Under the pieces are notes generated by a model. It ran no database searches. It was given only the letters and a program-made list of their open reading frames with translations, and was not told where the DNA came from. From Aquipuribacter sp. SD81 (GTDB lineage Bacteria; Actinomycetota; Actinomycetes; Actinomycetales; JBBAYJ01): a DNA stretch of 64,000 nucleotides. Shown in pieces: positions 9,575-14,395 of this stretch (within the stretch, counting starts at the first letter, position 1; every line of letters starts with the position of its first letter). The position numbers were made by a program, and so were the translations under genes. The stretch is from NCBI RefSeq assembly GCF_037153975.1, contig NZ_JBBAYJ010000013.1, forward strand, positions 1 to 64,000. Reading direction: 5' to 3'.

Positions 9575-11032
9575 TCACGCCCCGTCGGGGCGCAGCACGC
9601 CGGCGAGCGTGAGCGGCACCGGAGACAGCGGCTCGGTCGAGAAGCGGAGGGCGGCCGTGCCGCGCACGAGGTCGGCGTCCAGCACGAGGGCGTGCGGCAG
9701 GTGCGTGGGCCGCAGCTCCACCTCGACCCGTCCGGCGTCGGCGGACAGCAGGGTGGCGGCGACCGCACCGGTGCCGGCCGGGTGCCGCGACCAGCCGTCG
9801 TCGGCGACGACGACGAGCTCGTCGTCGCCGTCCCGTCCCCCGTCGAGGAGCGTGCAGCGCACCGCGGCGTCACCGGCGGGGGCCAGGTGGACCCGCACCC
9901 CCGGCAGCGGTCCGGTCGGGTCGAGCCCCACCCCCTCCGCCGGGAGCGCGGGACGGACGGCGCCGCCGCGCGCCCGGCCGTCGGGCAGCGTCACGCGCGA
10001 CAGGTGCGCCGCGAGCGCCTCGTCGGCGTCGTCGGGCCGGCCCGGCCGGGGGCTGCCGGGAGCCGGGGCGACGGCGGCCGGGACCACGTGCTCCCACACG
10101 AGGTCGAGCAGGCGCTGCGTCCGCTCGGTCTGGCCGGTCAGCGCGACGACGAGGTCGTGCTCGGGCACGACGAGCACGAACTGCCCGTAGGCGCCGTCGG
10201 CCCGCCAGCCGTGCCGGGAGCGCCACACCTGCAGGCCGTAGCCCAGGAGCCAGTCCGGGCCGGCCGGGTCGTCGTGGTCGTCGGTGGCGACCTGCATGCG
10301 CACGACCTCGTCGACCCAGCCCGGCGGGAGCACGTCCGCACCGTCGTGGCGGCCGTCCCGCACCAGCAGCAGCCCGAGCCGGGCGAGGTCGTCGACCGTG
10401 CAGCGGAAGCCGGAGAAGCCGAGCGCGCGACCGGTCGGGTCGCGCGACCAGGCGCCCTCGCCCGCACCGAGCGGGCGCAGCAGCCTGCGGCGCACGAGGT
10501 CGAGCAGGCCCTCGCCGGCCACGTGCTCGACGACGGCGGCGAGGACCTGGGTCGCGGGCTGGTCGTAGACGAACCGGCTGCCCGGCGCCAGCGCGGGCGC
10601 CACCGTGAGGAAGCCCCGCACCGGGTCGGGGTCGGCGGCCCACGCCGCGGCGACGGCGTCCTCGGCGTGCCCGGTCGCCATGGCCGCGCAGTGCCGGAGC
10701 GTGACCGCCGACCACTCCGGCACGGTGCGGGGTCCCACGAGGTGGGGCAGGAGGTCGACGACCCGGGCGTCGAGGTCGACGGCCCCGTCGCCCACGAGCA
10801 GGCCGAGCGCGCACGCCGTCACCGTCTTGCTCACGGAGTACACGAGGCGGTCCTCGTCCGGCATATACGGCGCCCACGTGGCGCGGGCGACGAGGGCGCC
10901 CCGGTGCACGACCGCGAGCGCGTGCGGCTCGAGGCCGTCGGTGGCCTCCCACTCGCGCACGAGGCGCAGGAGGGCGGTCGCGTCCAGGCCCGTGGCCGAC
11001 GGCGGCGCGGTCGGCAGGTCGCGCGGGCTCAC
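9575..11032 (-). CDS. Serine hydrolase, beta-lactamase/class C-like family
   Basis: A 485-residue protein of the beta-lactamase (PF00144-type) family. The catalytic SVSK tetrad (Ser66, Lys69) is in VYSVSKTVTACALGLL, and a YDQPA segment near residue 155 matches the second motif position; a GAYGQF segment near 280 takes the place of the third. A C-terminal region of about 150 residues after residue 330 is extra. No signal peptide, so it is probably a cytosolic esterase or peptidase rather than a drug-inactivating enzyme. Its GTG at 11032 overlaps the fahA stop by 4 bp, making it the last gene of the homogentisate operon. Confidence 0.82.
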   Translation of the reverse strand: MSPRDLPTAPPSATGLDATALLRLVREWEATDGLEPHALAVVHRGALVARATWAPYMPDEDRLVYSVSKTVTACALGLLVGDGAVDLDARVVDLLPHLVGPRTVPEWSAVTLRHCAAMATGHAEDAVAAAWAADPDPVRGFLTVAPALAPGSRFVYDQPATQVLAAVVEHVAGEGLLDLVRRRLLRPLGAGEGAWSRDPTGRALGFSGFRCTVDDLARLGLLLVRDGRHDGADVLPPGWVDEVVRMQVATDDHDDPAGPDWLLGYGLQVWRSRHGWRADGAYGQFVLVVPEHDLVVALTGQTERTQRLLDLVWEHVVPAAVAPAPGSPRPGRPDDADEALAAHLSRVTLPDGRARGGAVRPALPAEGVGLDPTGPLPGVRVHLAPAGDAAVRCTLLDGGRDGDDELVVVADDGWSRHPAGTGAVAATLLSADAGRVEVELRPTHLPHALVLDADLVRGTAALRFSTEPLSPVPLTLAGVLRPDGA

Positions 11033-12276
11033 GGCACCGGGCGGGCGGGCTCGACGACGCCGCGGACCTCGCCGAAGCCGACCCGGGACCCGTCCGGCCC
11101 GGGCGCCCACGCGGAGACGACGACCTCGTCGCCGTCCTCCAGGAAGGCGCGGGTCGTGCCGTCGGGCAGCTCCAGCGGCTGCTCGCCGTTCCACGTCAGC
11201 TCGATGAGCGAGCCGCGCTCGTCGGCGCCCGCGCCGCTGACGGTGCCGGAGGCGAGCAGGTCGCCCGTGCGCAGCGAGGCGCCGTTGACCGTCAGGTGCG
11301 CGAGCTGCTGCGCCGCCGTCCAGTACATGCCGGCGAAGGGCGGCCGGGACACGACCGCTCCGTTGAGCCGCACCTCGAGGTGCACGTCGAGGCCCCACGG
11401 GTGCGCGCTGTCGTCGAGGTAGCCCTGCACGGGGTGCTCGCGCGGCGGGGCCGGCACGCGCGCGGCGGTCAGCGAGGACAGCGGCGTCACCCACGCCGAG
11501 ACGCTCGTGGCGAACGACTTGCCGAGGAACGGCCCGAGCGGGACGTACTCCCACGCCTGCAGGTCGCGCGCGCTCCAGTCGTCGACCAGGCACACCCCGA
11601 ACACGTGGTCGGCGAAGGCGCCCACCGGCACCCGGTCCCCCAGCGTCGAGCCCACCCCCACGACGACGCCGACCTCGGCCTCGATGTCGAGCCGGGCCGA
11701 CGGGCGCACGAGCGGGGCCACGGCGCCGGGCGGACGCACCTGGCCGACGGGACGGCGGACCGGGGTGCCGGAGACGACGACCGTCCCGCTGCGCCCGTGG
11801 TAGCCGATCGGCAGGTGCGTCCAGTTCGGGGTGAGCGCGGGCTGGCCGGGCCGGAACATCGACCCGAGGTTCGCCGCGTGCTCACGGCTGGAGTAGAAGT
11901 CGACGTAGTCGGCGACCTGGAACGGCAGGTGCAGCGCGACCGGCGCCGGACCGCCGAGGGGGTAGGACAGCTCGCGCACGCGGTCGGCGTCGACGGCGTC
12001 GTCGGCGAGGACCCCGACGAGCCACTCCCGCTCCTCCGCCCACGCCTCCGGCCCGAGCGCCATGAAGGGGTTGAGCACCGGCGCGGCGAGGGTGTCGGCC
12101 CACGGCAGGCCGTCGTCGACCGCGAGGGCGTGGACGTCGACGACCGCGTCGTGCAGCCGCACGCCGACCCGCGGCAGCTGGCCGGGGATGGAGAAGACGC
12201 CGTGGGCGAGCGTCTGCGGGCCGAAGAGCCCGTCGGCGTCGGTCGCGTCCCAGGGGTCCGCCGGCTCGGCGCTCAC
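11029..12276 (-). CDS. fahA: Fumarylacetoacetase
   Basis: A 415-residue enzyme that cleaves fumarylacetoacetate to fumarate and acetoacetate, the last step of tyrosine catabolism. Family hallmarks are present: VADYVDFYSSREHAANLG, LPIGYHGRSGTVVVSG, the metal-binding IEAEVGVVVG and LVDDWSARDLQAWEYVPLGP, GKSFATSVSAWV, and TGDLLASGTVSG. The N-terminal SH3-like domain and C-terminal hydrolase domain are both full length. GTG 12276 overlaps the upstream gene by 4 bp and its stop overlaps the serine hydrolase by 4 bp. Cytosolic; co-transcribed with hmgA. Confidence 0.95.
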   Translation of the reverse strand: MSAEPADPWDATDADGLFGPQTLAHGVFSIPGQLPRVGVRLHDAVVDVHALAVDDGLPWADTLAAPVLNPFMALGPEAWAEEREWLVGVLADDAVDADRVRELSYPLGGPAPVALHLPFQVADYVDFYSSREHAANLGSMFRPGQPALTPNWTHLPIGYHGRSGTVVVSGTPVRRPVGQVRPPGAVAPLVRPSARLDIEAEVGVVVGVGSTLGDRVPVGAFADHVFGVCLVDDWSARDLQAWEYVPLGPFLGKSFATSVSAWVTPLSSLTAARVPAPPREHPVQGYLDDSAHPWGLDVHLEVRLNGAVVSRPPFAGMYWTAAQQLAHLTVNGASLRTGDLLASGTVSGAGADERGSLIELTWNGEQPLELPDGTTRAFLEDGDEVVVSAWAPGPDGSRVGFGEVRGVVEPARPVP

Positions 12277-13160
12277 GCGCCGGCGCCGACGAGCCCCACG
12301 CCCGGGCGGTGCAGGAGCCCGAGACCGGCGAGGTCCTCGACCGGCTCGACGGTCGAGCACGTGCCGAACGACGTGAAGGCGGCCCGCACGGCCGCCTGCT
12401 GCGCCTCGTCGAGGGGCTCGAGGAGGTCGAGCAGCGGCTCGGGCGCCGTCGCGGTCACGAGCCGGTGCACGTCGTCCTCGTCCGCGTCGTGCAGCAGGGC
12501 CGCCGCGGTCCCGGCGAGCAGGTTGAGGAAGCCGTGGTGCTCGAAGCCCGTGTCCTCGTCACGGTGCCGCAGCGCGTTGTGCAGGCCGGCCGTCGCCTTG
12601 AACGGCACGCCCGCCCGGACGGCCTCCCGCACGAACCGCGCGACCACCTGCGTCGCCGGGAAGCCCGCCGACGTCACCCCGCCCGTGCGGAGCTTCGCGT
12701 GCACGCCCGCCTCGCCGAGCACGGGCATGGTGGCGGCGGGGTCGAGCCCGGGCGAGGGCTCCACGACGAGCGCGACGCCGTCGGGCACCTCCATGCCGGT
12801 GCGCAGCAGCAGCACGGTGTCGGGCGCCGCGGCGCCGAGCGGCACCTCGACGCCCGCGAGCCGCAGGGCCGGGTCGTCCCCGGCGCGCACGGCCGCGGCG
12901 ACGTCGTCGAGGCCGCCCGGCACCACCACGGCGACGGGCAGCGGCTCGCGGGGGCCGTCGTCGCCGGCCAGCCGGAGCGCCGCGAGCAGCTCCGGCACCC
13001 GGTCCGCGCGCACGACGAAGTCCCCGAGCAGCGGGGCGAACCAGCTGTCCTCGTACATCGCGCGTGCGGCGACGGCGTCCCGCGGCCCGGCGTTGCCCGG
13101 CGGGAACATGGCGGCGTCGTCGAGCAGCCGCCGCAGCAGCGGCCTCGTCGTGTCCGTCAC
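12273..13160 (-). CDS. Conserved unknown protein of the homogentisate operon
   Basis: A 295-residue protein with no assigned function, located between hmgA and fahA with 4-bp overlaps on both sides. Distinctive segments are LLDDAAMFPPGN (N-terminus), HAKLRTGGV (about residue 150), PFKATAGLHNALRH and HHGFLNLLAGTAA (about 185-220). Charged residues inside alternating strand/helix patterns suggest a cytosolic enzyme, possibly a TIM barrel. I recall similar actinobacterial sequences annotated only as hypothetical. Its position fits the missing maleylacetoacetate isomerase step, since no GST-type MaiA is visible in the operon; this is an inference from context only. Confidence 0.8.
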   Translation of the reverse strand: MTDTTRPLLRRLLDDAAMFPPGNAGPRDAVAARAMYEDSWFAPLLGDFVVRADRVPELLAALRLAGDDGPREPLPVAVVVPGGLDDVAAAVRAGDDPALRLAGVEVPLGAAAPDTVLLLRTGMEVPDGVALVVEPSPGLDPAATMPVLGEAGVHAKLRTGGVTSAGFPATQVVARFVREAVRAGVPFKATAGLHNALRHRDEDTGFEHHGFLNLLAGTAAALLHDADEDDVHRLVTATAPEPLLDLLEPLDEAQQAAVRAAFTSFGTCSTVEPVEDLAGLGLLHRPGVGLVGAGA

Positions 13161-14395
13161 AGCTCCCCCTCGGGTCCCCGACCGCTCCACGTCCACGCGT
13201 AGCGGCCGTCGTCGCTCGCCCGCGCGGCCTCCCCCAGCTCGAGCGGGCGGAACGTGTCCACCATGACAGCCAGCTCGTCGAAGCGCTCGGCGCCCAGCGA
13301 GGCCTCGATCGCGGCGGGCTGGGGGCCGTGGCTGTGCCCGCCCGGGTGGACCGTCACCGAGCCCTTCGCGATGCCGGAGCCCTTGCGCGCCTCGTAGTCG
13401 CCGTCGACGTAGAACATGATCTCGTCGCTGTCGACGTTGGAGTGGTAGTACGGCACCGGCACCGCGAGCGGGTGGTAGTCGACCTTGCGAGGCACGAAGT
13501 TGCAGACGACGAAGTTCCACCCCTCGAAGACCTGGTGGACCGGCGGCGGCTGGTGCACGCGGCCCGTGACCGGCTCGAAGTCGGCGACGTTGAACGTGTA
13601 CGGGTACAGGCAGCCGTCCCAGCCGACGACGTCGAACGGGTGCCGCGGCACGACGTGGACCGTGCCGGCCAGGCCACCGGGACCGGACCCCCGGTGCTTG
13701 ACGAGGACCTCCACGTCGGTCTCCTCGCGCACCTCGGGCGCGCTCGGCCCGTGCAGGTCCCGCTCGCAGTACGGCGCGTGCTCGAGCAGCTGCCCGTACC
13801 GGGAGAGGTACCGCTTGGGCGGCGCGACGTGGCTGTTCGCCTCGATGCAGTACGCGCGCAGCGGGCCGTTGGCGGCGGTGTCGACGGGCAGCCAGCGGTG
13901 GGTCGTGCCCCGCGGCAGGAGCACGTAGTCGCCCTCGCGGGCGTCGAGGTGCCCGAACACCGTCTCGACGCGGGCGGCGCCGCGCTCGACGTACACGCAC
14001 TCGTCGCCGACGGCGTTGCGGTACAGCGGCGAGTCGGCCGCGGCGACGACGTACGACAGCCGTACGTCGGCGTTGCCGAGCACGAGCCGGCGCCCGGTGA
14101 CGACGTCGACGTCGGCCACCTGCGTGGCCTCGGTGCCGCTGCCGCCGGGGAAGAGCTCGTGCAGGCGCAGGTGGCGCGGGAGGAGCGGGGAGTTCGGCAC
14201 GGTGGACTGGTCGGGCAGCCGCCACGGACGGGCGTCGACCAGCGCCGACGGCACCCCCACGTGGTACAGCAGGGAGGAGTCGGAGGAGAAGCCCTCCTCG
14301 CCCATGAGCTCCTCGTGGTAGAGGCGGCCGGAGCCGTCCCGGTGCTGCGTGTGCCGCTTCGGCGGCACGTCCCCCATGGTGCGGTAGTGGGCCAC
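13157..14395 (-). CDS. hmgA: Homogentisate 1,2-dioxygenase
   Basis: A 412-residue Fe(II) ring-cleavage dioxygenase converting homogentisate to maleylacetoacetate. Cupin-type features are visible: LPRGTTHRWLPV, RHPFDVVGWDGCLYPYTFN, the histidine/glutamate ligand region YYHSNVDSDEIMFYVDG and HPGGHSHGPQP. Length is near the family norm. GTG 14395 has GAGGTGAG about 7 nt upstream. First gene of a four-gene operon (unknown gene, fahA, serine hydrolase). Upstream enzymes such as HppD are not in the window. Transcription probably begins near a TAGGCT box at 14456-14461. Confidence 0.95.
   Translation of the reverse strand: MAHYRTMGDVPPKRHTQHRDGSGRLYHEELMGEEGFSSDSSLLYHVGVPSALVDARPWRLPDQSTVPNSPLLPRHLRLHELFPGGSGTEATQVADVDVVTGRRLVLGNADVRLSYVVAAADSPLYRNAVGDECVYVERGAARVETVFGHLDAREGDYVLLPRGTTHRWLPVDTAANGPLRAYCIEANSHVAPPKRYLSRYGQLLEHAPYCERDLHGPSAPEVREETDVEVLVKHRGSGPGGLAGTVHVVPRHPFDVVGWDGCLYPYTFNVADFEPVTGRVHQPPPVHQVFEGWNFVVCNFVPRKVDYHPLAVPVPYYHSNVDSDEIMFYVDGDYEARKGSGIAKGSVTVHPGGHSHGPQPAAIEASLGAERFDELAVMVDTFRPLELGEAARASDDGRYAWTWSGRGPEGEL

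Follow-up and report, generated by a model that had tools for sequence, protein, structure and literature searches.

Tyrosine catabolism runs from homogentisate 1,2-dioxygenase (HmgA), which yields maleylacetoacetate, to fumarylacetoacetase (FahA), which uses fumarylacetoacetate, and a cis-trans isomerisation is normally needed between them. In the pathway as given in PMC11889516 and PMC6193087, this position belongs to MaiA (HmgC). MaiA is a zeta-class glutathione S-transferase (GST; TIGR01262) and depends on glutathione. Mycothiol is named as the dominant thiol of Actinobacteria in PMC4935862, which would fit with the glutathione enzyme having been replaced. The step has been described unevenly elsewhere. 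For Bacillus anthracis, the part of PMC4457819 on this pathway calls the steps after maleylacetoacetate unclear, and in the relevant section of PMC4591350 the 'mai' label of Rhodococcus opacus R7 was given to an enoyl-CoA hydratase-isomerase. Rhodococcus ruber Chol-4 grows on homogentisate, as reported in a section of PMC6498646, where the figure legend of the cluster lists hmgR, hmgA and hmgB with no isomerase and the text says hmgABC. In the present study, we analysed a window, that is, the whole stretch of 64,000 nucleotides at positions 1 to 64,000 of contig NZ_JBBAYJ010000013.1 from Aquipuribacter sp. SD81, in which the only gene between hmgA and fahA has no recognised family. The question is whether this gene, here called X, supplies the isomerase.

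Operon organization

The features of the locus are as follows.

9575-11032, minus strand: beta-lactamase-fold hydrolase (PF00144), 3' of fahA
11029-12276, minus strand: fahA, fumarylacetoacetase (TIGR01266, 404.7 bits, cut-off 375.3)
12273-12276, minus strand: GTGA, 4-bp overlap joining the stop codon of X to the start codon of fahA
12273-13160, minus strand: gene X, 295 amino acids, no family above cut-off, predicted DERA-like (beta/alpha)8-barrel
13157-13160, minus strand: GTGA, 4-bp overlap joining the stop codon of hmgA to the start codon of X
13157-14395, minus strand: hmgA, divergent homogentisate 1,2-dioxygenase forming maleylacetoacetate (PF04209 and PF20510 above the gathering score)

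The reading frame of X lies where the earlier note had put it, with a GTG start at 13160 and a TGA stop at 12275-12273, and it is locked at both ends, as that note had described, by the TGA of hmgA (13159-13157) and the GTG start of fahA (12276-12274). The identities of the two flanking genes also stood, by Pfam for HmgA and by TIGR01266 for FahA. The HmgA is called divergent because it reaches only 61.8 bits against TIGR01015 (cut-off 510.75), with the Pfam HgmA domains above cut-off. The junction between fahA and the hydrolase is another GTGA overlap of 4 bp, so the hydrolase is probably a fourth operon gene; its top NCBIfam match, 3-succinylated cholic acid synthase, lies far under the cut-off. 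The operon was said to be without a GST-type MaiA, and TIGR01262 is in fact missing from the whole genome (96.74% complete).

Searches with X against Pfam, NCBIfam and PHROGs gave no family above cut-off. For MaiA (TIGR01262) there was no match at E 1 or better, and the Pfam and NCBIfam profiles gave no match to deoxyribose-phosphate aldolase (DERA; DeoC, TIGR00126) or to the mycothiol-dependent maleylpyruvate isomerase family. A sequence search of the PDB with X and with alignment A2 found no relative (best E 0.27). Two candidate identities were discarded: CbiZ, which matched 9 of 62 members (best E 3.1e-06), was dropped because ten rechecked members reached at most 21.4 bits, under the Pfam cut-off of 27, and NF052261 (E 0.013 on X) was taken as a chance match. 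Of five records inspected, four have a gene table at X, and in each of the four the gene was annotated as 'hypothetical protein' and was followed by fahA.

Distribution of X and linkage to fahA

X belongs to a family that is conserved in actinobacteria and goes together with fumarylacetoacetase. Among 39 genomes, comprising the own genome and its relatives, nine contained X, and it was also found in 15 plasmid records from Streptomyces, Pseudonocardia, Nonomuraea and Rhodococcus, 12 of them with a single place covering at least 80% of the query. A search of the GTDB genome collection with X as a lone query found nothing; the search with alignment A1, whose sole pattern was K[ALC]TAGLH[HNT]A, gave at least 597 stretches, at least 590 of them confirmed to hold X, and the best 80 were kept.

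The linkage was counted over 92 loci, that is, 94 minus the copy of the window itself (L001) and a fragment (L009). X and fahA were same-strand neighbours in 84 of these, which is far beyond chance, and 55 of the 84 adjacent pairs share an in-frame overlap of 4 bp. fahA lay on the opposite strand in one locus (L067), and seven had no fahA within the fetched stretch; a whole-genome search of six of the seven (all except L094) found FahA elsewhere in each. Among the 84 adjacent loci hmgA was mostly on the opposite strand (51) or not seen (7), with 26 on the same strand, and the tightest bond of X is therefore with FahA. Since X is partnered with divergent HmgA and, in L146, with a canonical HmgA (TIGR01015, 630.7 bits), and adjoins 4-hydroxyphenylpyruvate (4-HPP) dioxygenase in L140 and L145, it tracks the pathway and not a single enzyme variant.

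Some loci depart from the usual layout. In L046, L047, L056, L073, L090 and L030, from Streptomyces/Kitasatospora and Nocardioides, X lies apart from both fahA and hmgA, and FahA is elsewhere in the genome. A Streptomyces genome (G334, the source of L024) carries fahA twice, with X next to one of the two copies. A contig of a Spirochaetaceae MAG (L091) carries an hmgA/X/fahA set with a FahA 63% identical to that of the window, either by horizontal transfer or by mis-binning.

The phylogenetic profile covered 296 actinobacterial genomes, each at least 90% complete. X was present in 19 and FahA, at E 1e-30, in 41, of which 35 were above cut-off. FahA was found in 18 of the 19 genomes with X, and X in one of the 255 without FahA (Fisher p 1.3e-16). 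The two were adjacent in 17 of the 18 genomes having both; in the exception, G270, X is a fragment that lies at the end of a contig, and this contig also carries hmgA, about 1.8 kb away. MaiA was above cut-off in none of the 296 genomes, including all 19 with X. GST-like matches below the cut-off occurred in 43 genomes, only three of which have FahA (G152, G272 and G300) and only two X (G152 and G300). In this profile, which the earlier note had proposed, X thus follows FahA where MaiA is missing, as an enzyme of EC 5.2.1.2 should, and no MaiA above cut-off was seen elsewhere in the genomes of the family.

FahA genomes without X

An enzyme of EC 5.2.1.2 should also be found in every genome that has HmgA and FahA but no MaiA, and here the result was different, as 23 of the 41 FahA genomes have neither X nor MaiA above cut-off. 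Because the first profile pass scored only eight candidates per genome, the absences of X were rechecked by two further single-protein searches with every first-look candidate scored, and X was again found in none of the 23 at E 1e-3; the matches in G196, G054 and G272 (E 0.02-0.35) were no better than chance. HmgA matched at E 1e-10 or better in 21 of the 23, ten of these matches being weak (1e-11 to 1e-14) and all from one genus, g30. In three genomes, G232 (L122), G247 (L123) and G068 (L129), hmgA stands directly beside fahA with no intervening gene and no X or MaiA above cut-off, and these are candidates for an isomerase-free homogentisate pathway. The 'slot' of which the earlier note spoke, where X lies in the window, can therefore be empty elsewhere. 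A substitute was sought beside fahA, and none of ten neighbours from 9 of the 23 genomes was isomerase-like; they included GPP34, an M48 peptidase, 4-HPP dioxygenase, an AsnC regulator, CobA, AlkZ and two proteins without any family.

A tree of 124 FahA sequences, 102 with X and 22 without, was built by FastTree only, with long branches flagged. It required about ten changes in the state of X, at least seven of them forced by starred branches, in comparison with about 20 for shuffled labels. X is thus now present, now absent within a single FahA family. A separate FahA subfamily in the genomes without X was not supported by this tree, and because both kinds are intermixed they presumably take the same substrate.

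Predicted fold and conserved residues

The AlphaFold2 model of X, built on 62 sequences, is a barrel with a mean pLDDT of 94.6 and a pTM of 0.92. Its eight strands are at residues 13-15, 45-51, 74-79, 99-109, 130-135, 154-158, 187-190 and 262-267. Foldseek matched it to barrels from many families (top E 8e-5, a de novo design). In VIA-align, rows 1 to 39 were all DERA or designs derived from DERA (Z 16.0-13.7), followed by PdxJ (12.8), and the best match, DERA, had Z 16.0 and rmsd 3.5 over 212 aligned residues. The predicted model is therefore a (beta/alpha)8 barrel of the DERA type. The earlier note had named structure prediction as a check, with the lack of any enzyme-like pocket counting against an enzyme, and the predicted barrel is of an enzyme type, similar to that of a Schiff-base aldolase.

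Residue conservation was counted over 109 members. Eighty of these rows were retrieved by a pattern that spans residues 188-196, so in them the conservation of this segment is by construction; K156, E134 and C268 are outside the pattern. Invariant residues are D14, P20, P21, R158, P168, G192, L193, H209, G210, R259 and G266 (109/109). K188 is kept in 108 of the 109 (in the 80 rows found with the pattern this is fixed in advance), E134, K156, H194 and C268 in 107 each (H194 being within the pattern, by construction in 80 rows) and E105 in 105. In the model E105 is on strand 4, E134 on strand 5, K156 on strand 6 and K188 on strand 7, with C268 just after strand 8. The codons of the residues of most interest are given below.

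12759-12761, minus strand: Glu134, strand 5, aligned with the conserved strand-5 glutamate of DERA
12693-12695, minus strand: Lys156, strand 6, putative counterpart, from the order of strands and the profile alignment, of the DERA Schiff-base lysine
12597-12599, minus strand: Lys188, strand 7, putative counterpart of the second active-site lysine of DERA
12357-12359, minus strand: Cys268, end of strand 8, in the SFG-x-C-S motif, candidate nucleophile for a Michael addition

These comparisons follow the residue numbering of E. coli DERA and the roles assigned there to its Schiff-base lysine and its second lysine. Two fahA-linked copies, L110 (G092) and L112 (G263), have lost K156, H194 and C268 all together, and may be decayed or re-purposed members.

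Over the full length, the profiles of X and DeoC showed no significant match (hhalign probability 1-2%), so the predicted kinship with DERA rests mainly on the fold. The segment of strands 4-7 scored 21.6 against the DERA profile (P 0.0045, a single comparison). In this alignment HAKLRTG lies on FVKTSTG and PFKATAGL on GVKASGGI, and the strand-5 glutamates also coincide. Column shuffles of the segment gave 10.8 +/- 2.1 with a maximum of 19.4, none of 200 reaching 21.6, and the reversed segment scored 11.3. Since the segment was picked after the fold match was known and shuffling columns is a lenient control, equal windows of other barrel families and further DERA windows were added: HisF reached at most 10.4 and HisA at most 14.4, and the DERA windows ranged from 11.7 to 21.9, higher as their coverage of strands 4-7 grew. 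This alignment appears weak but DERA-specific, and it agrees with the strand positions of the model in placing the putative Schiff-base lysine on strand 6 and the second lysine on strand 7.

X resembles DERA in its predicted barrel and putatively in the profile-aligned K-x-x-T-G lysine of strand 6, K-x-x-x-G lysine of strand 7 and glutamate of strand 5. It differs in its strand-6 motif (K-x-R-[TC]-G-G in X, KTSTG in DERA), in the four helices that the model places between strands 7 and 8, in the conserved cysteine of SFG-x-C-S and in residing in tyrosine operons, and the genome has its own deoC elsewhere (G000:C1:205764-206477). With MaiA, X would share the pathway position and the reaction, but the fold and sequence are unrelated. 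The mycothiol-dependent maleylpyruvate isomerase of the gentisate pathway, dealt with in sections of PMC3937715 and PMC6498646, is an actinobacterial answer without glutathione to a similar cis-trans problem; it has another substrate, needs mycothiol and belongs to another family than X. FahA is the constant genomic partner of X, but it is unrelated in sequence and acts downstream of the isomerisation.

Discussion

On balance, we lean towards X being a glutathione-independent maleylacetoacetate isomerase, because the isomerisation is needed, MaiA is absent, X is the sole family-less gene between the flanking enzymes, it overlaps with fahA and it is predicted to form a DERA-like barrel with a suitable residue set (two lysines, one cysteine and several cationic residues in the model). 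The suggestion of the earlier note that X is a non-orthologous isomerase is thus still the best reading, given that no MaiA was found in the profile and the barrel is of an enzyme type, but the absence of X from more than half of the FahA genomes weighs against it and the activity is inferred. In the open-licence full texts of PMC, among the matches listed, there was no barrel-type or glutathione-independent maleylacetoacetate isomerase.

As to how X may work, we tentatively propose a thiol-cofactor-free isomerase on a DERA-type barrel, in which a lysine imine and an internal cysteine would replace glutathione. The proposal builds on the C2/C4 chemistry of maleylacetoacetate, and thiols act in known cis-trans isomerases. 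As a stand-alone barrel enzyme, X would convert 4-maleylacetoacetate, the product of HmgA, to 4-fumarylacetoacetate, the substrate of FahA, with no glutathione. Lys156, aided by Lys188, would form an imine with the C4 ketone adjoining the cis double bond, and the alkene would thereby be activated. Either Cys268 would then add reversibly at C2, or the alkene would pass through a dienamine tautomerisation. The trans isomer would form once C2-C3 had rotated and the preceding step was reversed, and the conserved cationic residues Arg158, Arg198, His194, His209 and Arg259 may bind both carboxylates. That both members without K156 likewise lack H194 and C268 was counted in favour of this explanation.

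A class-I-aldolase-like site equally suits C-C cleavage and isomerisation, and the predicted fold with two conserved lysines would also fit aldol or retro-aldol chemistry. X could in this case be a lysine-dependent lyase at the side of the pathway, or a clean-up enzyme for by-products such as succinylacetone-type beta-diketones, with isomerisation being spontaneous, mycothiol-catalysed or carried out by an unlinked enzyme. The many FahA genomes that manage without X are what is expected for an accessory enzyme, and a glutathione-dependent non-enzymatic bypass is reported for MaiA-deficient mice (Fernandez-Canon 2002). However, the bond of X with fahA is tighter than that of hmgA with fahA and, with so many coding overlaps, strong for a mere repair enzyme; moreover, there is a single gap in the pathway, and between the enzymes that flank it only X is without an assignment. 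We regard this explanation as rather unlikely. It is improbable, in our judgement, that no isomerase is needed because FahA hydrolyses maleylacetoacetate directly to maleate and acetoacetate, X being a maleate isomerase or hydratase analogue or dispensable. Such a route would agree with the gene-free hmgA-fahA junctions, with the number of FahA genomes without X, and with B. anthracis, for which a portion of PMC4457819 reports no identifiable isomerase gene and cites a maleylacetoacetate hydrolase in some Bacillus, but the FahA of the window is above cut-off for the TIGR01266 equivalog and X has no Pfam or NCBIfam match to any known maleate enzyme. The earlier note had also considered a regulatory or channelling partner, for which the linkage speaks but no other positive evidence was found. 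A partner of FahA (or HmgA) that serves structure or channelling and has no catalytic role would explain the strict adjacency with coding overlap and the two fahA-linked copies devoid of the putative catalytic residues; yet a set of Lys, carboxylate, His, Arg and Cys kept in the barrel in 107 of 109 members is typical of enzymes, and six genomes retain X and fahA without linking them, making such a role very unlikely.

The strongest fact contrary to the isomerase reading is the existence of many FahA genomes with neither X nor MaiA. Together with the empty hmgA-fahA slots and the degenerate copies of X, it means that the step is dispensable or that other solutions exist. In such genomes a third route is therefore required, and X may be accessory; maleylacetoacetate might be hydrolysed directly, isomerise spontaneously or with a thiol as catalyst, or be handled by some other enzyme.

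X is a concrete candidate gene for the maleylacetoacetate gap in part of Actinomycetota, and the FahA genomes without X point to a further solution beyond it. If our reading is true, X would be a non-homologous replacement of MaiA and would add new chemistry to the DERA fold. With the mechanism tentatively proposed above, it would also represent a natural iminium-catalysed cis-trans isomerase and would fill a gap of tyrosine catabolism in glutathione-free bacteria.
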